A DNA stretch of 64,000 nt, taken from positions 1 through 64,000 of the IMG/VR virus record IMGVR_UViG_3300024520_000060. One strand, written 5' to 3'. The stretch is from a virus. The translations under genes were made by a program, and so were the position numbers. The first letter of the stretch is position 1; each line of letters begins with the position of its first letter. The notes under the pieces were generated by a model. It was not told the DNA's origin. It saw only the letters and a program-made list of their open reading frames with translations, and made no database searches. Positions 29,607 to 47,273 of the stretch are shown here, in pieces.

Positions 29607-29607
29607 A

Positions 29608-30678: not shown

Positions 30679-30746
30679 GCCTATAGAGCCGCGCCGTAAC
30701 TCCCTACCCCGCAACGACTTACAGCCCCGGAAAAGAAAACGAAACC

Positions 30747-30784: not shown

Positions 30785-30991
30785 ATGAAGAACAAAGACC
30801 ACCAGGCCGCCGGGGCCCGCGCTGCCGTGCGCTCCGCCGCCGCTGAACTCGCCCGCTACCACCTCCAGGCCGCCGACACGACGGGCAGCGCGGAGTACCA
30901 TGAGCACTCCGTGATCGTCGCTGAGATCGCCCTGGACGACCTCGAGGACGCCATCGCGACCCTGAAGGCCACCCTGACGGATCGCCGCTGA
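30785..30991 (+). CDS. Early helical protein, unknown (68 aa)
   Basis: Starts MKNKDHQAAG after cassette 5. It is mostly helix-forming, Ala/Glu-rich (ARAAVRSAAAELARYHLQAA, then IVAEIALDDLEDAIATLK), possibly a two-helix coiled-coil dimer. A longer in-frame extension upstream is rejected because the start context fits all other cassette genes. Function unknown. Confidence 0.7.
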   Translation: MKNKDHQAAGARAAVRSAAAELARYHLQAADTTGSAEYHEHSVIVAEIALDDLEDAIATLKATLTDRR

Positions 30992-31197
30992 AGTCCACCT
31001 GGTCCTGCTCAGCGAGTCTGGGGAGACCCATCGTGGAGAGACCGTAACGGACCCCTAACAGGGCCCTAACACCCCCACAGGGGTGATGGCGCCCACGTAC
31101 CCCACAGGGGCTCATATTCGCCGGCAGCGGCAGAGATCCACGGGCAGCCCCAGATCCAGCGGCAGCGGCAGCGGCAGCCCGAAAAGAAAACCGAAAC

Positions 31198-31236
31198 AAA
31201 GTAGCCCCGACCACGAACACGAGGTAAGTTGAAGCC
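31198..31236 (+). promoter_or_regulatory. Leaderless-type promoter cassette 6
   Basis: AAAGTAGCC at 31198, 18 bp without a dyad (CGACCACGAACACGAGG), TAAGTT (31225-31230), 6 bases, ATG at 31237. It shows that the hairpin is not essential. CGGCAG repeats precede the A-rich block, as before cassette 3. Confidence 0.75.
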
Positions 31237-31749
31237 ATGAAGAACCAACGACTGAACGAAGACGCCATGATGGCGCAAGTCAACGTCCACCAGGCGCTGA
31301 AGCAGGCCACAGAGGCCCACCAGGCACTGATGTTTGAGGGTACCGACGCCGGGGCCAGGGAGTACGCCCGGGCCTCCTTCGGGACCGCTGCAGCCGAGGT
31401 GCTGGGGCTCCTGCAGACGATGAACGATCAGGTCCGGACCCTGGGCCTACCACCCACCGAGCTCCGCACGTTCGGCAAGTGCGACTGGATGGCGTTCATG
31501 GGGTGCGACTCCGCCCAGCCCCTGATCGCCGAGAACGCCGACTACACCATGATCGTGGACGGCGACTACGTGTCCTTCATGACCTTCCTAGGTGACGAGC
31601 CGGGCCCCGCCTGGGGTGGGACGTTCCGGACCCCTGAGATCGCTGTGGCAGCCGCTGAGGCGATCATCGCCAACCCTAGCCGGGAGAAGGTCACGGGGCT
31701 CCTGGTCTGGGAGAACTGGACCATGCCCGACCACGGTAACTCCTTCTAG
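31237..31749 (+). CDS. Early protein with the shared GCD/IVDG domain (170 aa)
   Basis: The N-terminal 70 residues are helical (VNVHQALKQATEAHQALM, TAAAEVLGLLQTMNDQVRT). Residues about 75-165 repeat the domain of the 95-aa protein at 30124: ELRTFGKCDWMAFMGCDSAQPL, MIVDGDYVSFM, AWGGTF, AAAEAIIANP. The promoters of both genes share CGGCAG-rich upstream DNA, so a segmental duplication with a helical extension is likely. Function unknown. Confidence 0.75.
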   Translation: MKNQRLNEDAMMAQVNVHQALKQATEAHQALMFEGTDAGAREYARASFGTAAAEVLGLLQTMNDQVRTLGLPPTELRTFGKCDWMAFMGCDSAQPLIAENADYTMIVDGDYVSFMTFLGDEPGPAWGGTFRTPEIAVAAAEAIIANPSREKVTGLLVWENWTMPDHGNSF

Positions 31750-31786
31750 GCACTGGACTTACGACCGCCCCGAAAAGAAAACGATC

Positions 31787-31827
31787 AAAGAGTAGCCCCG
31801 CCCGGAAACGAGGGGTATACTGTAGCC
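31787..31827 (+). promoter_or_regulatory. Leaderless-type promoter cassette 7
   Basis: AAAGAGTAGCC variant, 18 bp from GTAGCC (31792-31797) to TATACT (31816-31821), 6 bases, ATG at 31828. Upstream GGACTTACGACC and GAAAAGAAAACGATC. Confidence 0.8.
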
Positions 31828-31992
31828 ATGAAGAAATCAATCGAAGCAGCGGAGAAGGCCCTGAACGAAGCCCAGGATGAGCTGGAACGCCTGATCGCCT
31901 GGGGCATCACGAGCGGGTCTGCCTACGACAAGGCCGATCGGGCCTACGACCTCGCGAGTGCCTACCTCTGCGCCGTCTCGGGGTGCGTCTGA
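31828..31992 (+). CDS. Early helical protein, unknown (54 aa)
   Basis: MKKSIEAAEKALNEAQDELE and on to ASAYLCAVSGCV: a short amphipathic helical protein with coiled-coil character in the first 25 residues. Its TGA overlaps the ATG of the following gene (TGATG), so the two are translated together from one cassette. Function unknown. Confidence 0.7.
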   Translation: MKKSIEAAEKALNEAQDELERLIAWGITSGSAYDKADRAYDLASAYLCAVSGCV

Positions 31993-32357
31993 TGGGTGCT
32001 CACGAGTTCATGACCGTCGGGTACGGCAAGACCAAGAGCGAGGCCTACCGAGGTGCCTGCTGGGAAGCCCAAGCCGAGAACGGTCACCAGGACGGCTACA
32101 GCGGGGACATCCAGACGACCAGCGGGTCGTGGGCCATCCACCCTGACACGGTCAAGGGACTCCGCAGGGCGACGCGACTGCGGATCCTGGAGCTGGTCGC
32201 CTTCGGCCTGAAGCCGAGCAAGGGCGAGCTCTACGGACGATCCCTGGAGGCCTACAACGAGGTGAAGGGGTGGGCTGAGGCCGAGAAGTGGGGTCGCTGC
32301 TACGCGGTCCAGCTCCGTCACCGCGAGTGGGCCTTCGCCGGTATCGCCGCAAGCTGA
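31992..32357 (+). CDS. Early protein, unknown (121 aa)
   Basis: Begins at the ATG overlapping the previous stop: MGAHEFMTVGYGKTKSEAYRGA. It is mixed alpha/beta with many Trp and Tyr residues (SWAIHPDTVKGLRRAT, EVKGWAEAEKWGRCYAVQLRHREW). As the second gene of a two-gene unit it relies on coupling with the first. No family recognised. Confidence 0.7.
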   Translation: MGAHEFMTVGYGKTKSEAYRGACWEAQAENGHQDGYSGDIQTTSGSWAIHPDTVKGLRRATRLRILELVAFGLKPSKGELYGRSLEAYNEVKGWAEAEKWGRCYAVQLRHREWAFAGIAAS

Positions 32358-32400
32358 GTCACCTCAGCGACTTACGCAAACCCGAAAAGAAAACGAGGTC

Positions 32401-32439
32401 AAAGTAGCCCCGGGTCCGATCCCGGGGTACACTGTACCC
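32401..32439 (+). promoter_or_regulatory. Leaderless-type promoter cassette 8
   Basis: AAAGTAGCC at 32401, 18 bp with CCCCGGG/CCCGGGG arms, TACACT (32428-32433), GTACCC, ATG at 32440. Upstream CGACTTACGCAAACC and GAAAAGAAAACGAGGTC. Confidence 0.85.
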
Positions 32440-32826
32440 ATGAAGAAACAAACCGCAGGCAACAACGACTACCTGAAAAGAGCCCGGGCCACCTGGAACG
32501 ACCCGATCTACAAGGAGGTCCTGAGGATCTACAACGAGCGGGGCCACGACGCAGCCCAGCGATACACCCAGGCGTACACACGCATCCCGGTGTTCCTCCT
32601 GGACCCGACCCCGGCCGAGCGGGACATCCGGATGTACGGCTGCCCCCGGGAGACCCTGGACGCCGACGCGGAGTCGGCCCGAGCGGGCGTCCGCAGCCTC
32701 GTCCTGAGCCTTTTGAGCGATGCTCAGGAGCTGATCAGCCTGAGCGGGCCCGACTACGCCGAGGACGCCCGTCACCTGATCAACCGAGCCAAGTACATCA
32801 CGCACACCTATCTCACTGGTGCGTAG
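32440..32826 (+). CDS. Early protein, unknown (128 aa)
   Basis: Starts MKKQTAGNNDYLKRA. Mostly helical and charged (IYKEVLRIYNERGHDAAQRY, RAGVRSLVLSLLSDAQELI, AEDARHLINRAKYI). No membrane segment or metal motif. Single gene under its own cassette. Function unknown. Confidence 0.72.
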   Translation: MKKQTAGNNDYLKRARATWNDPIYKEVLRIYNERGHDAAQRYTQAYTRIPVFLLDPTPAERDIRMYGCPRETLDADAESARAGVRSLVLSLLSDAQELISLSGPDYAEDARHLINRAKYITHTYLTGA

Positions 32827-32859
32827 GGACTTACGACGCCCCGAAAAGAAAAGCCAACC

Positions 32860-32898
32860 AAAGTAGCCCCGGGTCAGATCCCGGGGTACACTGTACCC
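32860..32898 (+). promoter_or_regulatory. Leaderless-type promoter cassette 9
   Basis: AAAGTAGCC at 32860, 18 bp with CCCCGGG/CCCGGGG arms, TACACT (32887-32892), GTACCC, ATG at 32899. Upstream GGACTTACGACG and GAAAAGAAAAGCC. Confidence 0.85.
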
Positions 32899-33294
32899 AT
32901 GAAGAAAACAACGATCGACCGTGCGCTGATGAGCGCTCTCCGCCCCGAAATCACCGACGCCCTTGCCGCCCTGGGCACCAAGTACGGGATCCAGATCTCA
33001 GTTGGCAACGGTCGCTACACGGCCGACCACGCTCAGTTCAAGATCCAGATGGACGCCATCGGTGAAGGAGGTACAGCGATCCGCAAGGAGGCCAAGGACT
33101 TCACCCGACAGGCGAACACGTCCTGGAGCGAGCTCCAGCCTGAATGGCTCGGCGCGACGTTCCAGAGTCGGGGTCAGACGTTCACGGTGGTCGGGTACCG
33201 TACCCGGGCCCCGAAGAACAACATCCTCTGCGCCAGCCAGGGCAAGGAATACGTCTTCACGACCCCGGCCCTGGTCCGCCTGATGAGTGCGTAA
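32899..33294 (+). CDS. Early protein, unknown (131 aa)
   Basis: Starts MKKTTIDRALMSALRPEIT. The middle has an alpha/beta look (GIQISVGNGRYTADHAQFKI), and the C-terminal half (LGATFQSRGQTFTVVGYR, NNILCASQGKEYVFTTPALV) reads like a small SH3-type barrel of the kind YxLG..F...G..Y.V.G. I infer only a possible nucleic-acid or protein-binding fold. Single-gene unit. Confidence 0.72.
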   Translation: MKKTTIDRALMSALRPEITDALAALGTKYGIQISVGNGRYTADHAQFKIQMDAIGEGGTAIRKEAKDFTRQANTSWSELQPEWLGATFQSRGQTFTVVGYRTRAPKNNILCASQGKEYVFTTPALVRLMSA

Positions 33295-33342
33295 ATCCCG
33301 CCACCGCAACGACTTACGCAACCACCAAAAGAAAACGAGGTC

Positions 33343-33380
33343 AAAGTAGCCCCGGGCTCCGGCCCGGGGTACCTTGAGGC
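33343..33380 (+). promoter_or_regulatory. Leaderless-type promoter cassette 10
   Basis: AAAGTAGCC at 33343, 18 bp with CCCCGGG/CCCGGGG arms, TACCTT (33370-33375), 5 bases, ATG at 33381. Confidence 0.8.
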
Positions 33381-33641
33381 ATGAAGAAATCAATCAAGAT
33401 GCTGACGCACTTCGCTCCTCCGCCCTTCTACTCGACCCAGGGAGGCGACTACTGGATCGCCTTCAACCTGGACCGCTGCGCGAACTGCGGAGCCACCACT
33501 CAGGCCCCGAACGCGATCAACTTCCACGAGTCCCGGGCCACGCTGGAGGGCCTGGGCTCCACGTTCCTCCCGGTCCTCCCGCCGGAAGCTAGTTGGGCGG
33601 ACAACGACGCCGAAGAAGAGTGCGACGCCTGTCCCCAGTAG
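33381..33641 (+). CDS. Early zinc-ribbon protein (86 aa)
   Basis: MKKSIKMLTHFAPPP, then CANCGATTQAPN and a C-terminal ECDACPQ. Two CxxC knuckles, residues about 34-37 and 81-84, would make one zinc site. The protein is otherwise acidic. Small zinc proteins of this type often bind host enzymes or DNA; the target is unknown. Confidence 0.7.
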   Translation: MKKSIKMLTHFAPPPFYSTQGGDYWIAFNLDRCANCGATTQAPNAINFHESRATLEGLGSTFLPVLPPEASWADNDAEEECDACPQ

Positions 33642-33660
33642 CCACCAAAAGAAAACGAGG

Positions 33661-33701
33661 AAAGAGTAGCCCCGGGCTCCGGCCCGGGGTATCTTGAAGG
33701 C
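33661..33701 (+). promoter_or_regulatory. Leaderless-type promoter cassette 11
   Basis: AAAGAGTAGCC variant at 33661, 18 bp with CCCCGGG/CCCGGGG arms, TATCTT (33690-33695), GAAGGC, ATG at 33702. Confidence 0.8.
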
Positions 33702-33917
33702 ATGAAGAAATCAATGACAGCCGACGACATCCGCTACTCCGACATGGTTGCTGACTACTGGCGCGAGCGCGAAGAGGTCATCCAGAGTGGGCGCATGGCC
33801 TTCCCGGAGAACATGCCCAGGTACGAGGCAGCCCACGTGGCCCTGCTGCAGGACTGGGGTCAGGACCGTGTGGACCTCGCCGCGAGCCGCTACGAGTCCA
33901 CCACGGAGCAGGGCTGA
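33702..33917 (+). CDS. Early protein, unknown (71 aa)
   Basis: MKKSMTADDIRYSDMVADYW, acidic and helical with several Trp/Tyr residues (YWREREEVIQSG, RYEAAHVALLQDWGQDRVDLA). Its stop shares a base with the next ATG (TGATGG). First gene of a two-gene unit. Function unknown. Confidence 0.7.
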   Translation: MKKSMTADDIRYSDMVADYWREREEVIQSGRMAFPENMPRYEAAHVALLQDWGQDRVDLAASRYESTTEQG

Positions 33918-34102
33918 TGGAGCCCGAATACCGCTTCTTCCCTGACCACCTGAACCCGATGGAGCCGGTCTCCTACCGGATACCGGGGCCCGAGCCCAGG
34001 GACGACCGGCCCGGTGACGTCTACCTGATCACCTGGGACGAGGAGGGGAACTGGACTGAGTCCGTCGCCCGCTGGGACGGCACGCAAATCGTTACCCTGT
34101 AG
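33917..34102 (+). CDS. Early protein, unknown (61 aa)
   Basis: Starts at the ATG in the TGATGG overlap: MEPEYRFFPDHLNPMEPVSY. It is beta-type and acidic (DVYLITWDEEGNWTESVARW). Depends on translational coupling with the 71-aa gene. Function unknown. Confidence 0.68.
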   Translation: MEPEYRFFPDHLNPMEPVSYRIPGPEPRDDRPGDVYLITWDEEGNWTESVARWDGTQIVTL

Positions 34103-34135
34103 GGACTTACGCAAACCCGAAAAGAAAACGAGGTC

Positions 34136-34174
34136 AAAGTAGCCCCGGCCCTAGTCGTCGGGTATACTGTAGCC
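34136..34174 (+). promoter_or_regulatory. Leaderless-type promoter cassette 12
   Basis: AAAGTAGCC at 34136, 18 bp with only a weak dyad, TATACT (34163-34168), GTAGCC, ATG at 34175. Upstream GGACTTACGCAAACC and GAAAAGAAAACGAGGTC. Confidence 0.8.
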
Positions 34175-34423
34175 ATGAAGAACGAAATGACAGCCAGCGA
34201 AGCCAACGAAGTCGCCATGAACCTGGAAGAGATCCGGGACCAGATCAAGGACCTCGCCCAACAGGCGCTGGAGCTGGTCCGGGGGACGCCCGAAGCCGAG
34301 CGCTCCAGGGTCTACTGGTACGGTCACGTGATGTCCGCCATGGACGACCAGGAGTACCCCGGTGGCTCCTACACGCTGGCCGACACCGAGGCCTACTTCC
34401 GCAACGACGGGGAAGAGGCATGA
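34175..34423 (+). CDS. Early helical protein, unknown (82 aa)
   Basis: MKNEMTASEANEVAMNLEEI, then KDLAQQALELVRGTPEAER: strongly helical first half, followed by a short aromatic segment (RVYWYGHVMSAMDDQEY). It overlaps the next gene by 4 bases (ATGATGG), forming a two-gene unit with the HD-domain gene, and may assist it. Function unknown. Confidence 0.7.
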   Translation: MKNEMTASEANEVAMNLEEIRDQIKDLAQQALELVRGTPEAERSRVYWYGHVMSAMDDQEYPGGSYTLADTEAYFRNDGEEA

Positions 34424-34818
34424 TGGAGCTACTGACCCCGGAAGGTCAGGCCCATGCCGAGCGGGTCGCAGACCGGGTTCCGCGCCACACCCTCCACCGA
34501 CTGATCGCCCTCCTTCACGATGTGATAGAGGACACAGAGGCGACCCACCTGGACATCGAACGTCTGTATGGGGCAACCGTGGCTGACTCCGTCCGCGTCC
34601 TTACACGAGTCCCTGAGGAGACCTACAGGGAATACATCCTGCGCGTCCTCTACAGCGACGATCCATACGCCCGGGTCATCAAGGTAGCCGACCTAGAGGA
34701 CCATCTGGACCAGGCAGCTACCCTGAAGCCGAGCCTGAAGTCCAGGTACATGAACGCTCTAAGTGTCCTGTCTCCAGGGACTTACGCACTTCGCGAAAAG
34801 AAAACGAGGTCAAAGTAG
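34420..34818 (+). CDS. Small HD-domain protein, RelA/SpoT-hydrolase-like
   Basis: 132 residues. LLHDVIEDTEATHLDIERLYG followed by VADSVRVLTRV and the later RVIKVADLEDHL reproduce the HDxxED and KxADxxxN-type motifs of the (p)ppGpp-hydrolase domain of RelA/SpoT and of small alarmone hydrolases. Metal-binding His and Asp candidates lie near 33-34, with the last Asp near 97. This would degrade guanosine tetraphosphate in the host cytoplasm; activity is inferred from motifs only. Its last residues (REKKTRSK) are read through the A-rich block of the next promoter, and its TAG stop is the TAG of AAAGTAGCC. Confidence 0.72.
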   Translation: MMELLTPEGQAHAERVADRVPRHTLHRLIALLHDVIEDTEATHLDIERLYGATVADSVRVLTRVPEETYREYILRVLYSDDPYARVIKVADLEDHLDQAATLKPSLKSRYMNALSVLSPGTYALREKKTRSK

Positions 34819-34850
34819 CCCCGGGTCTGAACTCGGGGTAGAGTACACCC
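34812..34850 (+). promoter_or_regulatory. Leaderless-type promoter cassette 13
   Basis: AAAGTAGCC at 34812 (its TAG also ends the HD gene), 18 bp with CCCCG/CGGGG arms, TAGAGT (34839-34844), ACACCC, ATG at 34851. Confidence 0.8.
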
Positions 34851-35324
34851 ATGAAGAAACTCACGAAACAAGAAATGAACGTCCTGATCTCCGCCCACGA
34901 AGCCACGGAGGACAACGGAGGCGACTTCGGGTTCAAGGACGAGATCATGCTTCCCGGTGACGGTACGGATCAGCTCACGATGATGGGGATCCTCCTGCGA
35001 CTGGAGGAGCTGGGCCTGATTGAGAACGAGCGCTGCCGGATCAACGACTCGGGGGCCTGGGTCAACCAGTTCGAGCTGACGGCGGACGGCCTCTACCAGC
35101 TGAACCCCGAGCCGTCTGAGCAGGACCACCTGGACGCGGCGGCTCGGGAGAGGAAGGCCCCCGAGACGGACGGCCAAACGGCCTCACGGATCGCTCTGGC
35201 TCTTGCCGGGTTCCAGGCTGAGTTGGCCGTCCAGGCGACCAGCAACAAGCCGATGGCCATGGTCCGCGAGATCCTGGCCGTCGCCGAGTCGGCCCTCCAG
35301 GACCGCGCACGCAACGTCGTCTGA
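34851..35324 (+). CDS. Early protein with winged-helix-like part (157 aa)
   Basis: MKKLTKQEMNVLISAHEATED starts like a DNA-binding winged helix. TMMGILLRLEELGLIENERC with WVNQFELTADGLYQL resembles the recognition helix and wing of MarR/PadR-type or archaeal-type winged helices. The second half (residues 85-157) is Ala/Gln-rich and helical. It could be a small transcription regulator of early genes; unproven. Confidence 0.65.
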   Translation: MKKLTKQEMNVLISAHEATEDNGGDFGFKDEIMLPGDGTDQLTMMGILLRLEELGLIENERCRINDSGAWVNQFELTADGLYQLNPEPSEQDHLDAAARERKAPETDGQTASRIALALAGFQAELAVQATSNKPMAMVREILAVAESALQDRARNVV

Positions 35325-35362
35325 GCACTGGACTTACGACCGCCCGAAAAGAAAACCCGATC

Positions 35363-35401
35363 AAAGTAGCCTGACCACCAAACACGAGGTACAGTGAAGC
35401 C
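35363..35401 (+). promoter_or_regulatory. Leaderless-type promoter cassette 14
   Basis: AAAGTAGCC at 35363, 18 bp without a dyad (TGACCACCAAACACGAGG), TACAGT (35390-35395), GAAGCC, ATG at 35402. Confidence 0.75.
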
Positions 35402-35743
35402 ATGAAGAACAACGTCATCTACAGCGTCCATATCCCGAACACCCCGACCGTCACGACCGAATACGGTAGCCTCCTGACCAAGCAGAACGTCCGGGCCTTC
35501 GATGGCCTGATCAGGGTCGTGGAGGACGGAGACAACTACTTCGGGACCGGGGCAGCCTTCCGCGACTACGTCCTGGAGAACCCTACCTGGGGCTCCATGA
35601 AGGCCGCAGCGGGTCGCATGATCGCCACGACGGGTGATCAGCACCATCAGTTCCTGGAGGGGGCCCACCTCACCGGGGAGACCGAGCTCCGGAAGAAGGA
35701 CGGTCGGGTCATCCGCATCGTCCGGCTCATGATGGGCTCCTGA
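35402..35743 (+). CDS. Early protein, unknown (113 aa)
   Basis: MKNNVIYSVHIPNTPTVTTE, then GDNYFGTGAAFRDYVLENP and a basic, beta-like end (ELRKKDGRVIRIVRLMMGS). No known motif. Single-gene unit of the early cluster. Function unknown. Confidence 0.7.
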   Translation: MKNNVIYSVHIPNTPTVTTEYGSLLTKQNVRAFDGLIRVVEDGDNYFGTGAAFRDYVLENPTWGSMKAAAGRMIATTGDQHHQFLEGAHLTGETELRKKDGRVIRIVRLMMGS

Positions 35744-35764
35744 CCCTGAAAAGAAAACGAGGAA

Positions 35765-35802
35765 AAAGTAGCCCCGGGCCCCGGCCCGGGGTACTCTTAC
35801 CC
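35765..35802 (+). promoter_or_regulatory. Leaderless-type promoter cassette 15
   Basis: AAAGTAGCC at 35765, 18 bp with CCCCGGGC/GCCCGGGG arms, TACTCT (35792-35797), 5 bases, ATG at 35803. Confidence 0.8.
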
Positions 35803-36060
35803 ATGAAGAACGACAACGAAGCGCGCCCCCTGACCGACGACGAAGCCGAGCTCATCCTGGGCGAGTGGCCGACGGCCCAAGTAGACGAGGCAGTGACCTG
35901 GGCAGGACCCGAGGTACAGCTGGATCTCCACGACCACAAGGGACCCCTGAGCTGCGCCACCGCCACCCGAGCCGTGGAGGTGGAGGTCGGCCTCCGGTGC
36001 CTTCACATCTTCCTGGACGAGGCCCGTCTGGACCCGATCGTCGCGGTCTACGAAGTCTGA
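35803..36060 (+). CDS. Early protein, unknown (85 aa)
   Basis: MKNDNEARPLTDDEAELILG, acidic, with a His-rich turn (LDLHDHKGPL) and a hydrophobic end (LRCLHIFLDEARLDPIVAV). Its TGA overlaps the ATG of the following exported protein gene. Function unknown. Confidence 0.68.
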   Translation: MKNDNEARPLTDDEAELILGEWPTAQVDEAVTWAGPEVQLDLHDHKGPLSCATATRAVEVEVGLRCLHIFLDEARLDPIVAVYEV

Positions 36061-36383
36061 TGCGGGCCCTCTACCCGGTCCTTGGAGGGGCCCTCGTGCT
36101 CGCCTTGGCGACCCCTGAGCACCCTTCCTTCAGGCCGAGGCACATGGCTCTGCCACAGATCGCTCAGGAGCCTCCGCTCCCGGATTGGGCTACGGGCCCG
36201 TCCTGGCAGGAACGTGAGGCACAGGCCCTGTCAGCGAGCCCCGCTGGGGTGGACATCCCGTGGCCTCGTACCGTCGTGGGGTGGGACGGCCCTGACCTGA
36301 TCCTGGAGGACGCGACCGGGGCCCGATGGCGGGCCACGTTCAGCGACTACCCTCACCAGCCGCAAACTCTTACACCCGAGTGA
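36060..36383 (+). CDS. Exported protein, unknown (107 aa)
   Basis: Starts at the ATG of the TGATG overlap: MRALYPVLGGALVLALATPEH, a plausible Sec signal peptide of about 17 residues. The mature part is Pro- and Trp-rich (IAQEPPLPDWATGPSWQERE) and ends near the next cassette. If exported it would act in the periplasm. Unusual for an early phage gene. Confidence 0.6.
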   Translation: MRALYPVLGGALVLALATPEHPSFRPRHMALPQIAQEPPLPDWATGPSWQEREAQALSASPAGVDIPWPRTVVGWDGPDLILEDATGARWRATFSDYPHQPQTLTPE

Positions 36384-36411
36384 CTTACGACGCCACCAAA
36401 AGAAAACGATC

Positions 36412-36452
36412 AAAGAGTAGCCCCGGGTCAGATCGTGGGGTACACTGTAGCC
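36412..36452 (+). promoter_or_regulatory. Leaderless-type promoter cassette 16
   Basis: AAAGAGTAGCC variant, 18 bp from GTAGCC (36417-36422) to TACACT (36441-36446), GTAGCC, ATG at 36453. Upstream TGACTTACGACG and AAAAGAAAACGATC. Confidence 0.8.
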
Positions 36453-36689
36453 ATGAAGAACGCAATCGAACGCATCCAGGAAGCTCTGGAAGACATGATC
36501 GAAGAGGCCACCGACGGCCTGAACCACCTGATCGCCTGCCAGGAGCAGGCTGAGGACCAGCTGAAGTCCGACGGCAACGCCGACCCGGACTGGACGGAGG
36601 TGGACGACGTCGCCCACGAGCTCGTGGATCTGGAGCACCAGGTGAGCCGGATCCGCCACTGCCTTGCTACCGTCACACGGGACATCTAA
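36453..36689 (+). CDS. Early coiled-coil protein, unknown (78 aa)
   Basis: MKNAIERIQEALEDMIEEAT, then GLNHLIACQEQAEDQLKS and a second helix (VAHELVDLEHQVSRIRHCLA): acidic helical hairpin with heptad-like Leu/Ile spacing. An in-frame ATG 18 bases earlier lies within the -10 box and is rejected. Function unknown. Confidence 0.7.
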   Translation: MKNAIERIQEALEDMIEEATDGLNHLIACQEQAEDQLKSDGNADPDWTEVDDVAHELVDLEHQVSRIRHCLATVTRDI

Positions 36690-36703
36690 AAGAAAACGAG
36701 GAC

Positions 36704-36742
36704 AAAGTAGCCCCGGGTCAGATCCCGGGGTACAGTGAAACC
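36704..36742 (+). promoter_or_regulatory. Leaderless-type promoter cassette 17
   Basis: AAAGTAGCC at 36704, 18 bp with CCCCGGG/CCCGGGG arms, TACAGT (36731-36736), GAAACC, ATG at 36743. Confidence 0.85.
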
Positions 36743-36955
36743 ATGAAGAACCAAGAAGAGCTTGAGACCATCCCCGTCTACATCCTCTATGTGGAGATGA
36801 ACCAAACCGAGGAGTACGAGGTGACCTTCAAGGTCACGCTCTCAGAGGACGCCCCTGTCACCGACTTCGTTGACGAAGCCTGTGAGATGCTGGACACACA
36901 CATCGCCAAGCACCATCCCACCTGGAGAGACTGGGAGATCCTGGACATCGCCTGA
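36743..36955 (+). CDS. Early acidic protein, unknown (70 aa)
   Basis: MKNQEELETIPVYILYVEMN, then YEVTFKVTLSEDAPVTDFVDE: small alpha/beta protein, very acidic (possible DNA mimic, but without proof). It is followed by a strong terminator hairpin. Function unknown. Confidence 0.7.
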   Translation: MKNQEELETIPVYILYVEMNQTEEYEVTFKVTLSEDAPVTDFVDEACEMLDTHIAKHHPTWRDWEILDIA

Positions 36956-36965
36956 TCACCAACCT

Positions 36966-36993
36966 GGCCCGGGCCCCTCAGGGGGTCCGGGCC
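36966..36993 (+). terminator. Rho-independent-type terminator
   Basis: Arms GGCCCGG and CCGGGCC around an inner GCCCCTCAGGGGG hairpin, followed by TCTTCGTGT. It closes the main early transcript before the last two early genes. Confidence 0.65.
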
Positions 36994-37123
36994 TCTTCGT
37001 GTCCGTCGTGTACTCGCTCGCTCACAGCTCGCACCTGGACTTTGGATTCTGGATAGGCCCTAGGGCCCGCGTCCAAACAGGACGTCACCTGGTCCTGCTC
37101 ACAGCCCCGAAAAGAAAGCGAGG

Positions 37124-37164
37124 AAAGAGTAGCCCCGGGTCAGATCGTAGGGTAGAGTGAGGCA
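37124..37164 (+). promoter_or_regulatory. Leaderless-type promoter cassette 18
   Basis: AAAGAGTAGCC variant, 18 bp from GTAGCC (37129-37134) to TAGAGT (37153-37158), GAGGCA, ATG at 37165. A dispersed-repeat relative (37081-37102) lies just upstream. Confidence 0.8.
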
Positions 37165-37449
37165 ATGAAGAAATCAGCCATAGTCAAACAGATCGTCAAA
37201 GAGGCTTGGGAAGGCGAGACCAACTTCCGGCCCTACGACACCCACGACCTGCTCGCTGCTCGGAAGTTCGTCTACAACCGACCTCTGGTTGGAAAGAGCT
37301 TGAAGACGGCACTCCATGCCGAGGACGCTCTCCTCTGTGAGATCCTGGAGATGCGCAACGACATCCATCCCGTCACTCAGCGGCAGCTCATCGAGCGGCA
37401 CGAGTACATTCGCCGGCAGCTCCGCGACAAACAGAAACGATCAAAATGA
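37165..37449 (+). CDS. Early helical protein, unknown (94 aa)
   Basis: MKKSAIVKQIVKEAWEGETN, then LVGKSLKTALHAEDALLCEI and a basic end (EYIRRQLRDKQKRSK). The C-terminal KQKRSK resembles the tails of other genes that run into the A-rich block of a cassette. It overlaps the next gene by 4 bases. Function unknown. Confidence 0.7.
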   Translation: MKKSAIVKQIVKEAWEGETNFRPYDTHDLLAARKFVYNRPLVGKSLKTALHAEDALLCEILEMRNDIHPVTQRQLIERHEYIRRQLRDKQKRSK

Positions 37450-39958: not shown

Positions 39959-40450
39959 TCATCTCAGACCTTGCTTGTACTTGTAGAGGACTTCAGCTGC
40001 GTCGGGCTTCTGCCAGCCTTCAGGCTTCAGAGGCTTGGATCGCGGGCCAGCAGCCACCTTCGCCATGTTCGCACGCTGTACATCACGCCAGAACGGCATG
40101 AGGGGTAGGCCCAGCGCGACGAGAGTACCCACCACAACGTAGATGACGTCGACGGCTTCCGAGGCGATCTTGGCCAGGTTGCGACCCATGATGGCCTCGC
40201 AGAGTTCCTCGCACTCCTCACGGATCAGCTCACACCGGAAGACCAGCATGCCATGGTAGGGAGTGTCATTGGGTGTCGTCGGGGCCGGGTGGCCAAACTT
40301 CAGATGGAAGTCACTGACGTCCTCGTAGATCCCGTGCTCCAGCCCCTCTGCCGCGTCGGCACACTCGTGGAGGAGCTGGGAGTTTGAGATGCGCTGCGAA
40401 CTTCGACTCAGTTCGCGGAGAGTCTTGGATAGCTTCATCGGCTGGGTCAT
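39959..40450 (-). CDS. MazG/HisE-like NTP pyrophosphohydrolase
   Basis: 163 residues. CELIREECEELCEAIMGRN, then KIASEAVDVIYVVVGTLVALG reproduces the EExxE...ExxD metal-binding pattern of all-alpha NTP pyrophosphohydrolases. The later LMPFWRDVQRANMAK and KPEGWQKPD ending is typical of phage members. Such enzymes can remove selected dNTPs, for example dTTP where thymine is replaced. Starts 4 bases before the end of the upstream exported-protein gene. Confidence 0.78.
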   Translation of the reverse strand: MTQPMKLSKTLRELSRSSQRISNSQLLHECADAAEGLEHGIYEDVSDFHLKFGHPAPTTPNDTPYHGMLVFRCELIREECEELCEAIMGRNLAKIASEAVDVIYVVVGTLVALGLPLMPFWRDVQRANMAKVAAGPRSKPLKPEGWQKPDAAEVLYKYKQGLR

Positions 40451-42054: not shown

Positions 42055-42339
42055 CTACCCCGGGAATGCTTCCGGGGCGGGTCGAACTTCTTCGCCACGG
42101 CAAATGGCTGGCTCACAGGCAGTTACAGCGTCCAGAAGCTTCTGAAGGTAGGAGACATCTCGGCGGAGACCCTCCCGAGCATTCCATGCGTTGGCCTCTG
42201 AGATGCCTCCGGTGCCTCGTAGATCGGCGTACCGTTCTTCGGCTGTCTCCAGGTTCGCCATCGCATACTCGTGCATGTTGGCGAGTGGCTTGCGGACCTT
42301 GATGTAGACCCGCTCCTCTTGGTTCCTGTACTTGGCCAC
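42055..42339 (-). CDS. Small helical protein, unknown (94 aa)
   Basis: The likely start is GTG at 42339, overlapping the stop of the previous gene (TAGTG), with GGGAG about 8 bases before. The product (M/V-A-K-Y-R-N-Q-E-E-R) continues as EYAMANLETAEERYADLRG and RRDVSYLQKLLDAVTACE, two helices with a Cys pair near the end. No ATG lies in a better place. Function unknown. Confidence 0.55.
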   Translation of the reverse strand: MAKYRNQEERVYIKVRKPLANMHEYAMANLETAEERYADLRGTGGISEANAWNAREGLRRDVSYLQKLLDAVTACEPAICRGEEVRPAPEAFPG

Positions 42340-42509
42340 TACGTCGTCTCCCAGAACTTGATCAGACGTTCCATGACCTCGGGCTCCAGGGTCACAGTCC
42401 TCTCCTGGGGCCAGCCTTTGTCTACCAAAAGGATGATGGCGTAGTCTGTCCGGGTGGCGATGACGCCGTCGCCAAGGTTCTCTGTAGGCATACCGTTTGT
42501 GCCGCTCAT
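42339..42509 (-). CDS. Small protein, unknown (56 aa)
   Basis: MSGTNGMPTENLGDGVIATR, then YAIILLVDKGWPQERTVTLE: a short beta-rich protein. ATG overlaps the stop of the 49-aa gene (TCATGAGC). Full coding overlap on both sides supports it. Function unknown. Confidence 0.62.
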   Translation of the reverse strand: MSGTNGMPTENLGDGVIATRTDYAIILLVDKGWPQERTVTLEPEVMERLIKFWETT

Positions 42510-42655
42510 GATTGACCTCGGCAGGCGTTGCGGTTGGCTTGTTTCTTGCGGTTGGTGAACGAGCGGGCCCGACCCTTGGTGGTGCTGGCCAGGCCGGCAC
42601 CGCGTCGTTTGGCTTGCTCGACTCCCATCGGCAACTTCTTCGTGTGATTCTTCAT
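42506..42655 (-). CDS. Very basic small protein (49 aa)
   Basis: MKNHTKKLPMGVEQAKRRGA, then KGRARSFTNRKKQANRNACR: net charge strongly positive, like a small nucleic-acid-binding protein. It is driven by cassette 19 and starts with the conserved ATGAAGAA. Function unknown. Confidence 0.68.
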   Translation of the reverse strand: MKNHTKKLPMGVEQAKRRGAGLASTTKGRARSFTNRKKQANRNACRGQS

Positions 42656-42694
42656 GCCTTCAACCTACCCCGACATCTGACCCGGGGCTACTTT
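42656..42694 (-). promoter_or_regulatory. Leaderless-type promoter cassette 19 (minus strand)
   Basis: Reading leftward: AAAGTAGCC (42694-42686), 18 bp with CCCCG/CGGGG arms, TAGGTT (42667-42662), GAAGGC, ATG at 42655. Almost identical to cassette 20 in sequence. Confidence 0.8.
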
Positions 42695-42707
42695 GATCGG
42701 GATTTCC

Positions 42708-43115
42708 TTACAGCATGCCTTCCAGGTGCTGCTCGGATACACCTGAACGCTTCGGAACCTTGTACTCGAACCCGTGACCATAGTAGCCGTTCTGGGAGTT
42801 GAACAGGTGGAGGTACATCCGAGAGGAACCACCGTCGTTCCTACGCAAGCGGAAGATCGCGACACCACCATACTCAAGATGTTCGGGCTCGGCCTCTACC
42901 ACTTTCCAGGTGGTGTCGAACTCCCAGTTCTCCCAGTCCAGCTCCTTGTCTGTGTCCTCATAGGCGTCGAACTCTAGCTTGGGCTCTGGGCTGAGAAACC
43001 AGTCAGCGTGCTCACAGCAGTCGTGTGTACTGTCGTAGCCAACGAACACGTTGTGCTCGTCTACGAAGTTGTGTTTCTCATGGTAGATACCGTTTGCTGA
43101 TTCGAAGTATTTCAT
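42708..43115 (-). CDS. Protein with DCCE motif, DUF7448-like (135 aa)
   Basis: 135 residues with VFVGYDSTHDCCEHADWFL and a C-terminal LHLFNSQNGYYGHGFEY. The paired Cys in a GYD..DCCE context and FN..NGYYGHGFE resemble a conserved family of small phage proteins I recall as DUF7448; this is from memory. Acidic middle. Function unknown. It overlaps the next gene by 4 bases. Confidence 0.62.
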   Translation of the reverse strand: MKYFESANGIYHEKHNFVDEHNVFVGYDSTHDCCEHADWFLSPEPKLEFDAYEDTDKELDWENWEFDTTWKVVEAEPEHLEYGGVAIFRLRRNDGGSSRMYLHLFNSQNGYYGHGFEYKVPKRSGVSEQHLEGML

Positions 43116-43462
43116 GATGCGTTGTGTACCGTGTGGGCGTTCCAGCCAGCGACGAAGGAGGTGATACTCGGTTCGCCCACTCCTTTGTAGTCCTTCACGA
43201 AGTTGAACCAGGCAGTTCGGATGACGGGAGAAGCCTGACGACTACAGACGACCTGTCGCGTGCGGGTCTCGTTGGCGTAGACCGAAGCCTCGTCACGATA
43301 GTACCCTTCCGTCTTGCTGACCCAGCAGCCAGCCTTGACCAGGCATTCGGCAGCCTGGGCAGCCTCGTGACAATCCAGACGCGCCCCGATGAGCTCCGCG
43401 TCCGACATCCGCTTGGCTTGGGCTTTCTTCGCGACCCAATCGATTTCCGTTGTTTGCTTCAT
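43112..43462 (-). CDS. Protein under cassette 20, unknown (116 aa)
   Basis: MKQTTEIDWVAKKAQAKRMS, then ARLDCHEAAQAAECLVKAGC and TAWFNFVKDYKGVGEPSITS. Several Cys residues without a clear zinc pattern. Mostly helical. First of a two-gene unit with the DCCE protein. Function unknown. Confidence 0.66.
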   Translation of the reverse strand: MKQTTEIDWVAKKAQAKRMSDAELIGARLDCHEAAQAAECLVKAGCWVSKTEGYYRDEASVYANETRTRQVVCSRQASPVIRTAWFNFVKDYKGVGEPSITSFVAGWNAHTVHNAS

Positions 43463-43501
43463 GCCTTCAACCTACCCCGACATCTGACCCGGGGCTACTT
43501 T
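43463..43501 (-). promoter_or_regulatory. Leaderless-type promoter cassette 20 (minus strand)
   Basis: Reading leftward: AAAGTAGCC (43501-43493), 18 bp with CCCCG/CGGGG arms, TAGGTT (43474-43469), GAAGGC, ATG at 43462. Its TAG ends the upstream GGDEF gene. Confidence 0.8.
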
Positions 43502-43965
43502 GATCGGGATTTCTTCTGATTGAACATGGAACGGTCCGCCATTTCCAGCGAGGAGCCCATGCCCACCGATGCGTTGACCCAGCAGTCGTTACTGTACCAT
43601 TTCGAGATCACCTGGAAGATCCTGTGAGCCCCAGCAGAGGTCGAGCACCAGACAACGAACTCGTCGCCTCCCAGCCTACTGACCACGTGATCCGTGTGCT
43701 TCCTCACAGATCGCTGAAGGAACTCTGCAAACTCACGGAGGATACGGTCCCCGTAGAGGTGGCCGTCCGGGTGCGCGTCCTGAGCAGCCTTGAACTTGTT
43801 CAGGTCAGCCACAATGAACCAACCCTCCCGAGCATTGACTTTGCTCTCTAGACCTCGTCGGTTGGACAGGTCGGTCAGGGGGTCTGTTTCAGCGAGGTGC
43901 CGGAACTCGTCGCGCTGACGCTCCAACACATCGATGCGGTTCAGTAGCTGTGCGGTTGTTTCCAT
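43495..43965 (-). CDS. Stand-alone GGDEF domain, diguanylate-cyclase-like
   Basis: 156 residues, essentially one GGDEF domain after a 25-residue helix. Motifs: TDPLTDLSNRRG (27-38), ADLNKFK (53-59), GHLYGD (68-73), RLGGDEFVV (97-105), and a C-terminal WVNASVGMG...MADRSMF like the usual SxGxA...ADxAMY. The signature GGDEF and catalytic Asp54 are intact. The residue at the usual guanine-contacting Asn is Gln62, and the RxxD inhibitory site is absent. It would make cyclic di-GMP in the host cytoplasm if active. The last residues (QKKSRSK) come from the next promoter cassette. Confidence 0.8.
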   Translation of the reverse strand: METTAQLLNRIDVLERQRDEFRHLAETDPLTDLSNRRGLESKVNAREGWFIVADLNKFKAAQDAHPDGHLYGDRILREFAEFLQRSVRKHTDHVVSRLGGDEFVVWCSTSAGAHRIFQVISKWYSNDCWVNASVGMGSSLEMADRSMFNQKKSRSK

Positions 43966-44003
43966 GCCTCACCCTACCCCCGGATCCGGCCCGGGGCTAA
44001 TCT
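43966..44003 (-). promoter_or_regulatory. Leaderless-type promoter cassette 21 (minus strand)
   Basis: Reading leftward: TTAGCC instead of GTAGCC (44000-43995), 18 bp with CCCCGG/CCGGGG arms, TAGGGT (43976-43971), GAGGC, ATG at 43965. Confidence 0.7.
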
Positions 44004-44566
44004 TTCTCTGACCAAATCTGGTCGATCAGGCCCCACTCCAGAGCCTGTTCGGCACCGAAGTATCGATCGGTGCTCGCCTTGCTGAGTCGCGACCAGTGCC
44101 TGTAGGGCATGTCAGTGTACTTGGCGAGTAGCCTGTCCATCCGCTCACACCGTCGCTTGATTGCCGCCATGGTGCCGTCCACGTTCGCCATCTGACCGTC
44201 GAGTTCTACGCTCGCTGTGTGCAGCATGAACTCGCAGTTCTCGCTGGCGTACCGCTCGCCGCGACTCCCACAGGCCACGAGGAAGGGAGCTGCCGACATG
44301 CACATCCCGAGCGCTGTGGTGCGGACCGGCACCCTGATGGTACGGGTCACATCGTGGAGGGCGAACGTCTCGTCGATATCCCCACCGTAGCTGGCGATGA
44401 AGAGGTCAATCGGTGAGTCACCATCGTCCGCCATGAGGTACATGCCTCGGATGGCCGTCGCGATGGTGTCAGACTCTACGTCACCCTGGAGGAAAATCCT
44501 CCGACCTCGGACGTCGATGCCGTACTCTAGAGCAGCCTCCAGGTTGACCTTGAACGCGTCGGTCAT
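43997..44566 (-). CDS. ClpP-like serine protease
   Basis: 189 residues with the ClpP fold. GMCMSAAPFLVAC (87-99) carries the nucleophile Ser91, EFMLHTASV (112-120) carries His116, and ASTDRYFGAEQALEWGLID places Asp167. All three catalytic residues are present. Such phage ClpP homologues may act in prohead maturation, but this gene lies among early or regulatory genes rather than next to the capsid, and the head protease of this phage is of another type. The N-terminal loop that docks Clp ATPases is short. A role in host protein turnover is possible. Confidence 0.8.
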   Translation of the reverse strand: MTDAFKVNLEAALEYGIDVRGRRIFLQGDVESDTIATAIRGMYLMADDGDSPIDLFIASYGGDIDETFALHDVTRTIRVPVRTTALGMCMSAAPFLVACGSRGERYASENCEFMLHTASVELDGQMANVDGTMAAIKRRCERMDRLLAKYTDMPYRHWSRLSKASTDRYFGAEQALEWGLIDQIWSEKD

Positions 44567-44802
44567 TTCGGGAGGTTGAGCCAGGCGTGTTGGTCAGACC
44601 CGGGACAGCGGTCCCGAGCGGTACCCTCCCTGGAGTGGCGGAAGGGCCTGACTGAACGAAAGACGTCGCCGAACTTCGTGGTCTCCCTGGCGCGGAACGG
44701 ACGCCCACACACCCTGCAGAACACGGGCCTTTCGCCGGCAAGGGCCTCTTCGAACTGAATCGTGAGTTCCTTCTGGAGTTTTGCGTACTCGTCGCTGTTC
44801 AT
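44563..44802 (-). CDS. Zinc-finger protein (79 aa)
   Basis: MNSDEYAKLQKELTIQFEEA, then CRVCGRPFRARETTKFGD and RDRCPGSDQHAWL. CxxC pair plus later Cys/His give a probable zinc site. Four-base overlap with the ClpP gene. Function unknown. Confidence 0.66.
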   Translation of the reverse strand: MNSDEYAKLQKELTIQFEEALAGERPVFCRVCGRPFRARETTKFGDVFRSVRPFRHSREGTARDRCPGSDQHAWLNLPK

Positions 44803-45083
44803 TTCTTCAGCACCTCGTGTACAGCATCAAGACCGAACGCTTCGATTAGACGATCGATGATCTGCTCCATATTCGCGATTCGCTTGTCCCGAGCCTCGAT
44901 CTCGTCGGCCGCAATGTCGGTCAGCTCTTCGCCTTCCGCTCTCAGATGCTGGAGGATGTCGACAGTCTCCCAGCAATCGCGGGAGCAGAACTCGTAGAGC
45001 CAAGGCTTGTCGATGTCGTTGGAAGCCTCTATGGTCAGGGCATCACGGTCACAGTCGGGACCACAGCAGGGGAGGTTGGTCAT
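44799..45083 (-). CDS. Zinc-finger coiled-coil protein (94 aa)
   Basis: The N-terminal half holds CCGPDCDRDALT and FCSRDCWETVD, two Cys pairs for one zinc, as in MYM/TRASH-like fingers. The second half is helical (IEARDKRIANMEQIIDRLIE) and probably dimerises. Four-base overlap with both neighbours. Function unknown. Confidence 0.66.
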   Translation of the reverse strand: MTNLPCCGPDCDRDALTIEASNDIDKPWLYEFCSRDCWETVDILQHLRAEGEELTDIAADEIEARDKRIANMEQIIDRLIEAFGLDAVHEVLKK

Positions 45084-46393
45084 AGTTTGAAGTCCGGTAG
45101 CCAGAGTTGTTGGGGGTCGGGCTCTCCGAGCCCTGGGTTTTCGTACACCTTGCCTTCAATCACACAGATCCCCTCGCTCGTGACGACAGGGTACTGATGG
45201 ACCCGGCCTCCCGGGTGCACGAAGCATACCCCGAAACCTGTCTGCCAGCCTGTATTTCTCTTCTTGAACATGTAGCTCCGACCGGCCCGGGGCACACAGC
45301 CCATCGGAGTTGACATCCAGGATCGGGCTCCTCCGCGTTCTTCGGTGGCGAAGGCCATCCCGGCCCGGTGAACGTGGCCACTCTGTCCCGAGTAGCCGTG
45401 GTCCCGAAGCTCAGTCAGGGCCGGTGTCTGCCCAAGGGCATGGCCGTGGTAGATCAGGTAGAAGTCATGGAAGAGGGTACCCGGTAGATGGTCCTCAGTC
45501 CCCACAGGTGACGCGATGGTGCCACCTTGGGCCAACTTCACCCCATACTCCGCAACTCCCGCCAGGCGGTCGAAGCGGAGCTCCTCGACGTCGCCCACCT
45601 TGATGCCCAGCCCACTCAGGGAGCCGGACACTTGGCTGAGGTACATGGCGATGCGGTCCAGACCGTGGTTGCCACTGCCCCAGATGAGCTCTCCGTCGTA
45701 GACCTCCCTGATCTGACGCATCATCTCACGAGCGAAGGCGAACTCCATGCTCATGGGAACTGACCAGCCCGGGATCTTCGGGTGACGACTGATGGCCGCA
45801 CCCTCCAGGATGTCTCCGTTCAGGTAGACATAGTCGGGCTCCAGCTCCTGGATGGTACGGAGGAAGCACCACCAGGTGAAGGGGTCCAGGAAGGTGGCGT
45901 GGGTATCTGAGATGCTGACGACACACTCGACGTCGCACAGTCCTCGCTCGTCTGGGTCGTACACGTGGGGATGCATGTACCGTTCCTGGTAACGACCACC
46001 ATGCTCTCGCCTACTCTGTTGGGCCCTTGCTGCCTTGGCCGTCCGGGTTCCAGGCTGGTCAGCCAGGCCCGCTACCTGCTTGGCGTGTTCGAATTGGCCG
46101 AACTCCTGCTCCAGGAAGGAGATGTACCATCGGCCGAATCGCTTGTACCTCTTCCGACTGAGGGTCTTGTCCTTGTAGAAGGGGTTGGTCTGAGGGTCTG
46201 ACGCCACCCTGCGCATGTCGGCGAGGAGGTCCTCGGTGGTGGGCGGTTCCTTGATCTTGGAGTTGCGCTCGCGCTCCTCCTCGGCAGCCTCTTCGGCCTT
46301 CCGGAGATGGTACTTCTTGAGTTCAGCCTCGTTCTTCCGAACACTGTCGGGAGCGGAGAGGAATGAACTGAGGTCGTGGGGTTCGTCTGTCAT
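45080..46393 (-). CDS. Calcineurin-like metallophosphoesterase
   Basis: 437 residues from the ATG at 46393. The phosphoesterase signatures appear in order: SDTHATF (D-x-H), NGDILEG (GDxxxG), GSGNHG (GNH), YHGH and SGHVHR (GHxH). The first 160 residues are charged and helical (DLLADMRRVASDPQTN, KRYKRFGRWYISFLEQEF) and form an additional domain of unknown role. Such enzymes cleave phosphoesters in nucleic acids, nucleotides or proteins; the substrate cannot be told. It shares four bases with the next gene start. Confidence 0.82.
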   Translation of the reverse strand: MTDEPHDLSSFLSAPDSVRKNEAELKKYHLRKAEEAAEEERERNSKIKEPPTTEDLLADMRRVASDPQTNPFYKDKTLSRKRYKRFGRWYISFLEQEFGQFEHAKQVAGLADQPGTRTAKAARAQQSRREHGGRYQERYMHPHVYDPDERGLCDVECVVSISDTHATFLDPFTWWCFLRTIQELEPDYVYLNGDILEGAAISRHPKIPGWSVPMSMEFAFAREMMRQIREVYDGELIWGSGNHGLDRIAMYLSQVSGSLSGLGIKVGDVEELRFDRLAGVAEYGVKLAQGGTIASPVGTEDHLPGTLFHDFYLIYHGHALGQTPALTELRDHGYSGQSGHVHRAGMAFATEERGGARSWMSTPMGCVPRAGRSYMFKKRNTGWQTGFGVCFVHPGGRVHQYPVVTSEGICVIEGKVYENPGLGEPDPQQLWLPDFKL

Positions 46394-46644
46394 AGTTGCG
46401 TGAATCCAAGATGCATCCGGAGGTGGATGCGGAGTGTCTTCTCTGAGCCCATGCCCCACTTGGGGCCGAAGTAGCCGGACCAGATTGAATGGATGGTGTG
46501 GTGGATGGTGCCGTCCATCCGCCCTGCTGCGTACTCGGCCACCTCGGCGGCGAGCTTGGGATTCTTGCAGACGGAGCACATCGGGGAAACCCGAGTGCCA
46601 GGGGGAGGAGCCTCACCTTTGAGAAAGTCGCGGAATTCACTCAT
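46390..46644 (-). CDS. Small zinc-finger-like protein (84 aa)
   Basis: Start chosen at the ATG exactly 6 bases after TAGACT, giving MSEFRDFLKGEA; an ATG two codons earlier is less likely. CSVCKNPK near residue 23 is a Cys pair, and later His residues (IHHTIHSIW, RIHLRMHLG) could complete a site. It precedes the phosphoesterase and is co-transcribed. Function unknown. Confidence 0.66.
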   Translation of the reverse strand: MSEFRDFLKGEAPPPGTRVSPMCSVCKNPKLAAEVAEYAAGRMDGTIHHTIHSIWSGYFGPKWGMGSEKTLRIHLRMHLGFTQL

Positions 46645-46683
46645 GACCATAGTCTACCCCGAACAGGGCCGGAAGGCTAGGAA
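46645..46683 (-). promoter_or_regulatory. Leaderless-type promoter cassette 22 (minus strand)
   Basis: Reading leftward: CTAGCC (46680-46675), 18 bp with CCGGCCC and CGGGG, TAGACT (46656-46651), 6 bases, ATG at 46644. The start lacks the usual ATGAAGAA. Confidence 0.6.
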
Positions 46684-46712
46684 AAGAGAGCCCGACTGGG
46701 AGTCGGACTCTC
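46682..46712 (-). terminator. Rho-independent terminator after the metallopeptidase gene
   Basis: Arms GAGAGCCCGACT and AGTCGGACTCTC form a 12-bp stem with one G-U pair and a 3-base loop. On the minus strand TTTT follows directly (82-85 of the 46,600 line). Confidence 0.85.
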
Positions 46713-46755
46713 GCTAGATATTGTCACCTCCTTGTCAGCGGGGTGTGCCCCTACT

Positions 46756-47235
46756 CTACCGGAAGGCTGCAGGATGGGTAGGGGAAACCTTCAATCGTGC
46801 CTCCCGCATGGACTGGATGACGTCCCCGTACCTTGCTGCGGTGTAGACGTCCAGCAGCCGAGCGTACTCCTGACAGAACTCAGGCCCATGGGCAGCGAGA
46901 TCCCAGGAGTCAGGACCCAGGTCCCGACGACGTCTCTGGATGGAGTGGGTGAGCTCGTGGAGCACATACCACGTTGTCTGGGTGACACGGTAGGAGCCCG
47001 ACAACTTGATGAGGTGGCCCGTTGCGGTGCCCCTTCCTCGGTTGTTCATGACCCGAATCTTCGGGACCGAGCCGAGGTGAGCCCACTCCTGGGCCCAGAC
47101 CTCGTTGACCAGCCGTTGGGCCCCAGCCTCTCCGAGCGGGGTGTTCTCTTTGTCGGTGACCAACCATGCCGAACCGAGTTCTGCGAGTTCCCATCCGTAG
47201 AGCTTGGATCTCTGACTGTCTCTTTGTTTCTTCAT
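46756..47235 (-). CDS. Zinc metallopeptidase-like protein
   Basis: 159 residues. WYVLHELTHSIQ (about 90-101) is a classic HExxH zinc motif, and AHGPEFCQEYARL (about 115) gives the third His in the H.G.F context known from SprT-like and TIGR04338-type putative metallohydrolases. The N-terminal part has KIRVMNNRGRGTATGHLI. Possible role in protein processing or DNA-protein crosslink repair; unproven. Stand-alone unit with promoter and terminator. Confidence 0.72.
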   Translation of the reverse strand: MKKQRDSQRSKLYGWELAELGSAWLVTDKENTPLGEAGAQRLVNEVWAQEWAHLGSVPKIRVMNNRGRGTATGHLIKLSGSYRVTQTTWYVLHELTHSIQRRRRDLGPDSWDLAAHGPEFCQEYARLLDVYTAARYGDVIQSMREARLKVSPTHPAAFR

Positions 47236-47273
47236 GCCTCAAGATACCCCGAGATCTGAGACGGGGCTACTTT
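47236..47273 (-). promoter_or_regulatory. Leaderless-type promoter cassette 23 (minus strand)
   Basis: Reading leftward: AAAGTAGCC (47273-47265), 18 bp with CCCCG/CGGGG arms, TATCTT (47246-47241), GAGGC, ATG at 47235. Confidence 0.8.

Follow-up and report, generated by a model that had tools for sequence, protein, structure and literature searches.

A compact stand-alone GGDEF domain with an altered base pocket in a family of phages, a candidate minimal cyclic-dinucleotide synthase

A 156-residue protein encoded on the minus strand of the window, by which we mean the whole analysed stretch of 64,000 nucleotides (bases 1-64,000 of a 69,996-base IMG/VR virus record), is a genuine GGDEF domain and represents, within a known type of enzyme, a conserved variant specific to phages. 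We regard it as a minimal, probably dimeric GGDEF enzyme that works as a cyclic-dinucleotide synthase, with cyclic di-GMP (c-di-GMP) as the most likely product, and acts on host signalling; the probability of this reading is roughly 55%. We place the protein in the GGDEF family but do not call it a canonical diguanylate cyclase: the base-contacting Asn was tested for and is absent, with Gln at its position in 14 of 14 family members. The positions of all features are compiled in Table 1.

Table 1. Features of the GGDEF gene and its surroundings in the window
Feature	Position	Strand	Basis and remarks
Stand-alone GGDEF gene, 156 aa	43495..43965	-	ORF; Pfam PF00990 E 1e-15; NCBIfam TIGR00254 E 1.7e-15; model pLDDT 95.6
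N-terminal helix, residues 4-26; a/d heptad L7 I11 L14 R18 F21 A25 D28; candidate coiled-coil dimerisation stalk	43888..43956	-	DSSP on model; aligns with WspR and PleD stalk
Base pocket (residues 58-73, FKAAQDAHPDGHLYGD) with Gln62 in place of Asn, two inserted residues and Asp73 retained	43747..43794	-	14/14 relatives; 0/38 nearest bacterial GGDEFs
RLGGDEF motif, residues 97-103	43657..43677	-	Sequence comparison
C-terminal ADxxMxxxK segment, residues 143-151, phosphate-binding Lys kept; 39 residues after GGDEF versus usual 58-60	43513..43539	-	Sequence comparison
Start element of GGDEF gene: CCCCGGG dyad, TAGGGT box, ATG	43963..43996	-	Also present at the start of about 20 other window genes
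ClpP-like serine protease, upstream neighbour; adjoins the GGDEF gene in L039, L040 and L080 too	43997..44566	-	Pfam PF00574 E 1.1e-33; synteny
Metallophosphoesterase-like gene, two steps further upstream; kept in L039, L040, L080 and L085	45080..46579	-	PHROG 221 E 1.3e-16
PRA-PH/MazG-like nucleotide pyrophosphohydrolase, about 3 kb downstream of the GGDEF gene	39959..40450	-	Pfam PF01503 E 1.3e-16

The match to PF00990 reaches 58.3 bits at a cut-off of 23.8, and this profile as well as TIGR00254 recognize every family member, so that the stand-alone GGDEF protein proposed in the first-pass annotation is borne out by reading frame, profile and model alike. Of the 161 profile positions of PF00990 only 1-103 are aligned, owing to the compact C-terminal half: the distance from GGDEF to the ADxxM segment is 37-40 residues in the family versus 58-60 in most full GGDEF domains, and in all 14 members the domain falls about 20 residues short of the usual length. 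An AlphaFold2 model (mean pLDDT 95.6) is confident throughout and contains the N-terminal helix, a sheet-and-helix core and a C-terminal helix with the phosphate-binding lysine, so the domain is not truncated. The comparison with PleD that had been asked for gave a Z score of 16.8 and an rmsd of 1.8 over 127 residues with the structure bound to c-di-GMP and GTP-alpha-S (2v0n), and many solved GGDEF domains lie in the same range (Z 16-17.7, rmsd 1.6-1.9, about 127 residues). The alignment with WspR (3bre) extends over 151 residues and includes the stalk, the top Foldseek matches of the model are active diguanylate cyclases, and the heptad positions of the helix are mostly hydrophobic in eight relatives.

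Other origins of the open reading frame were considered and rejected. Read on the plus strand, the same interval is broken by stops, and a chance or frame artefact is ruled out by the 13 homologues with invariant catalytic residues. A bacterial gene in a misbinned contig is at odds with neighbours that are phage genes and with a gene order that is kept across related phage contigs. A known defence protein was dismissed as well, as PADLOC gave no match for the GGDEF protein and nine other window proteins.

The catalytic residues announced by the first-pass annotation were all verified: R97-LGGDEF, D28-x-LT and the metal Asp D54 are intact, and F58, K59, Asp73, GGDEF at residues 99-103 and K151 are kept as well. 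The GG[D/E]EF motif and the beta-1 metal Asp are found in 14 of 14 family members, in which D54, F58, K59, D73 and GGDEF are invariant, and 10 of 12 canonical catalytic or substrate positions were invariant among eight members (hypergeometric p ~3e-6). This conservation of the catalytic core would be hard to explain without catalysis. The Arg equivalent of PleD R446 has no clear counterpart in the 156-residue protein. The pocket that receives the base is altered, and the replacement of the guanine-contacting Asn had already been noted in the first-pass annotation: Gln62 sits where diguanylate cyclases have Asn (N335 in PleD), and two residues are inserted between Gln-Asp and the GHxxGD loop. 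To our knowledge, there is no enzyme with such a combination of Gln and a two-residue insertion in the pocket. Asp73, the equivalent of PleD D344 with its Watson-Crick contact to guanine, is kept in 14 of 14. The Asn equivalent to the one replaced by Gln62 contacts the base edge in GacA (Asn339; PMC6456294).

A single-sequence scan of IMG/VR found no relatives and profile scans alone succeeded, yielding 13 further distinct phage proteins with 41-54% identity and thus a family of 14. Gln, the two-residue insertion and an intact GGDEF are present in every one of them, and because the Gln is invariant and accompanied by the adjacent insertion, it characterizes, judged from the alignment, the family as a whole rather than being a random loss. 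With the trait columns left out of the tree, the eight members then known form one clade (support 97/91), which in the best tree stands apart from the Yuavirus-type and other short phage GGDEF domains and from the bacterial ones; a shared origin of all compact phage GGDEF domains was not rejected (AU p 0.12 and 0.29). Short stand-alone GGDEF proteins of 155-192 residues that have Asn and are likewise shortened in the C-terminal half were also seen in other phage contigs (L013, L021, L026, L033, L034 and L036), and compact GGDEF domains are, by the sequences at hand, a recurrent phage gene.

A sample of 39 full-length GGDEF domains, taken mostly from two bacterial genomes, has Asn at the pocket position in 38 and Glu in a single, degenerate domain. 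The family profile was furthermore searched in bacterial genomes from two phyla (299 and 296 genomes), and the best match was read for 40 genomes: the motif was readable in 38 of these nearest bacterial GGDEF domains, with Asn in 38/38 and the insertion in 0/38, and all of them lie within longer open frames of at least 236 residues. Peptides of the family, scanned against 84,980 species genomes, returned only two ordinary GGDEF domains, both with Asn. The search of cultured phages with family member L007 gave no match at 1e-5, a plasmid search gave partial matches only and none at 80% query coverage, and no publication on the Gln/insertion family turned up in our literature search. As far as we can see, given limited sampling and pattern-based scans, the Gln/insertion pocket appears to be restricted to phages.

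The inhibitory RxxD site is indeed missing in the window protein, as noted before, and the local sequence is R88-KHT-D92, that is RxxxD. The first-pass annotation had attached to this the idea that a lack of feedback control is the point of the protein, and this part is not supported. RxxD is present in 10 of 14 family members, one residue farther from GGDEF than in PleD, and is absent from the window protein, L080, L081 and L083. Because these 10 keep the site, its loss is, at the level of sequence, a property of the window protein and three relatives and not the purpose of the family.

At 1-27 kb the window has genes for tail, tape measure, head, portal and terminase, and at 51-59 kb those for primase, DNA polymerase, dCMP deaminase and a thymidylate-synthase-like protein, each of them on the minus strand. 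Its terminase shares 46% identity with the one of Shewanella phage S0112. The thymidylate-synthase-like protein and its Yuavirus counterpart, annotated in MP1412 as thymidylate synthase/deoxyuridylate hydroxymethyltransferase, are 55% identical. Because of this gene content and these two matches we classify the phage, on predicted functions, as siphovirus-type with a Yua-like nucleotide-modification gene. An integrase or serine recombinase was not found in the record, which is possibly incomplete.

The order metallophosphoesterase, ClpP-like protease, GGDEF and PRA-PH/MazG-like gene is largely kept in L039 and L040 and partly in L042, L080 and L085, with neighbourhood proteins of the nearest relatives at 35-72% identity. 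In L039, L040 and L042 the PRA-PH gene lies directly downstream of GGDEF and its start overlaps the GGDEF stop by four bases, which suggests that the two may be translationally coupled in these phages; in the window phage several small genes now lie between them. In L084, L086, L087, L090, L041, L043, L045 and L046 no homologue of window genes adjoins the GGDEF gene. L039 additionally contains a gene for a sigma-70-type factor with regions 2 and 4 (6478-7362, plus strand) between the metallophosphoesterase and ClpP-like genes, and no counterpart was seen at this place in the window phage. The ClpP-like type bears the PHROG label head maturation protease; the gene in the window is surrounded by non-structural genes, at a distance of 17 kb from those of the head, and this position suggests a role other than head maturation.

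The start element of the GGDEF gene, with CCCCGGG dyad, TANNNT box and ATG, recurs at 14 small plus-strand genes at 29-37 kb and at a few minus-strand genes at 42-47 kb, and the pattern GGGTANNNT-N4-7-RTG has 24 matches in the window versus 2.4 expected. At about 20 gene starts (29083-37182, plus strand; 42060-47260, minus strand), the TAG stop of the previous gene is followed by the dyad CCCCGGG-N-CCCGGGG, the TANNNT box and then, 5-6 bases on, ATGAAGAA. The element looks like one promoter-operator per gene giving leaderless or near-leaderless transcripts, and it suggests that the GGDEF gene may be co-expressed with a group of small genes that are probably early. Two stretches of 57 bases (42650-42706 and 43457-43513) share 100% identity, each of them covering the end of one gene and the start element of the following one, and point to a recent duplication or recombination. 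The gene-poor stretch before the small-gene block contains five copies of a 49-base repeat with the core AAAATAAATCCGGAATCGTCTAAAG, 36-47 bases apart (28540-28744), with tandem 45-base and 31-base repeats nearby, and is a possible origin or control region.

Sequence and model show a protein without sensor domain and I-site that consists of a compact domain with its own N-terminal helix. We assume that this helix would pair two copies in parallel, as the stalk of WspR or PleD does, and would thereby bring two half-sites face to face without an input domain. Such a dimer could join two purine nucleoside triphosphates, most likely two GTP to c-di-GMP, as soon as the protein is made. We favor c-di-GMP as product, since none of the phosphate and metal residues is lost, Asp73 is retained and the amide of Asn can equally be supplied by Gln; the Gln in place of the base-contacting Asn and the two added residues in the same loop would argue against it. 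Every phage record contains a single GGDEF gene, and a search for an EAL phosphodiesterase, a PilZ receptor and a c-di-GMP riboswitch found none in the phage. Therefore the product would act during infection through the c-di-GMP network of the host itself, with surface structures, motility and envelope as conceivable targets, and the phage GGDEF protein probably rewires host signalling in this way.

The altered pocket could also mean that the enzyme is active with a changed choice of base, so that Gln and the insertion lead to cGAMP, c-di-AMP or a hybrid, possibly directed against a cyclic-nucleotide defence or a different host receptor. A pocket change in 14/14 members versus 0/38 of the nearest bacterial GGDEF domains suggests a selected specificity, and there are precedents, as one pocket residue makes Hypr GGDEF enzymes produce cGAMP (PMC6456294) and the swap of a single base-contact residue alters the products of mCpol (PMC12657218). 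However, the Watson-Crick contact of Asp73 is kept where Hypr enzymes have Ser, the Gln may still offer the same amide, and no defence genes were detected among 10 neighbourhood proteins in a PADLOC scan, so we consider a changed base choice possible but doubtful. The more demanding version, a phage-only GGDEF subfamily whose new pocket makes a dinucleotide other than c-di-GMP and thereby subverts host signalling or cyclic-nucleotide defence, seems unlikely to us.

Loss of catalysis is decidedly unlikely. The fold would then be kept as a binder of GTP or c-di-GMP or as a partner of host GGDEF proteins and would in this way dampen host signalling, which would fit the altered pocket and the fact that degenerate GGDEF domains are well known as receptors or allosteric sites. 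Such domains lose the GGDEF motif or the metal Asp, whereas both are invariant in 14/14 family members, and the I-site, the usual binding site of receptors, is absent in the window protein. We give even less credit to a role of the GGDEF palm in nucleotide metabolism or DNA modification, together with the PRA-PH/MazG pyrophosphohydrolase and apart from signalling, which is very unlikely. The overlap of the PRA-PH gene with the GGDEF stop in the three phages mentioned above and the presence of dCMP deaminase and a dUMP-hydroxymethylase-like thymidylate synthase in the phage are in line with it, but the eight phages in which no window-gene homologue lies beside GGDEF are not, and we know of no nucleotide-pool activity for any GGDEF domain.

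If the protein is active as the minimal synthase that we favor, it would be hard to imagine a smaller self-contained GGDEF cyclase, given its 156 residues and the lack of a sensor, and phages would drive the cyclic-dinucleotide signalling of their hosts directly. The gene is carried by lytic-looking phages and stays in a conserved neighbourhood across strongly diverged relatives.

Diguanylate cyclases had been called rare in phages, and this has to be revised: stand-alone GGDEF genes are found in at least 47 sequenced Yuavirus/Vojvodinavirus records (at least 60% identity to the Psa21-HRN copy) and in several further phage groups. The Yuavirus/Vojvodinavirus proteins (YuA gp44, MP1412, Bordetella CN1/LK3) resemble the family in being single compact domains of about 155 residues with a shortened C-terminal half, and the phages that carry them are, like the window phage, siphoviruses with a related dUMP-hydroxymethylase. 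In contrast, they are only 31-34% identical to the window protein, have Asn, no insertion and RIAGDEF instead of RLGGDEF, and the YuA gp44-type clade is separate from the family in the best tree, a joint clade being compatible with the AU values given above. Lysogens of LK3 in Bordetella bronchiseptica form up to 2-4 times more biofilm and the GGDEF protein was proposed as possible cause, whereas flagellar motility was increased in one strain, which does not fit a simple excess of c-di-GMP (Petrovic Fabijan et al. 2021, PMC8471281). The idea that a stand-alone GGDEF protein of phages affects biofilm is thus already published, and the new aspect here is the family with the Gln/insertion pocket; the LK3 protein is about 33% identical to the window protein and has Asn, and phage LK3 has an integrase, unlike the window phage as far as recovered. 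Diguanylate cyclases of mobile elements that alter biofilm and motility are also known (PMC10672970). The diguanylate cyclase of Bacillus phage SP-15 (183 residues) and gp350 of phage G (254 residues) are near in predicted fold, longer and 24-29% identical.

With PleD, WspR and DgcB the window protein shares the fold, the metal Asp, GGDEF, the Asp344 equivalent and the stalk helix, and it differs from them by the lack of input domain and I-site, by Gln for Asn335, by two more residues in the pocket loop and by about 20 fewer after GGDEF. The mCpol protein (OptS of Panoptes) is likewise a small stand-alone palm cyclase of similar size, but is nearly devoid of a GGDEF motif (PMC12657218); an mCpol/Panoptes identity was rejected, as PF18182 finds no match in the GGDEF protein or the phage. 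Hypr GGDEF enzymes (GacA, Bd0367), which make cGAMP, have an altered base pocket in a GGDEF domain as the family does, but there the other guanine contact is changed from Asp to Ser (PMC6456294), and the family keeps this residue as Asp73. The fixed pocket change offers a natural, ready-made test of base choice by GGDEF domains, which so far has been opened only by the Hypr enzymes.
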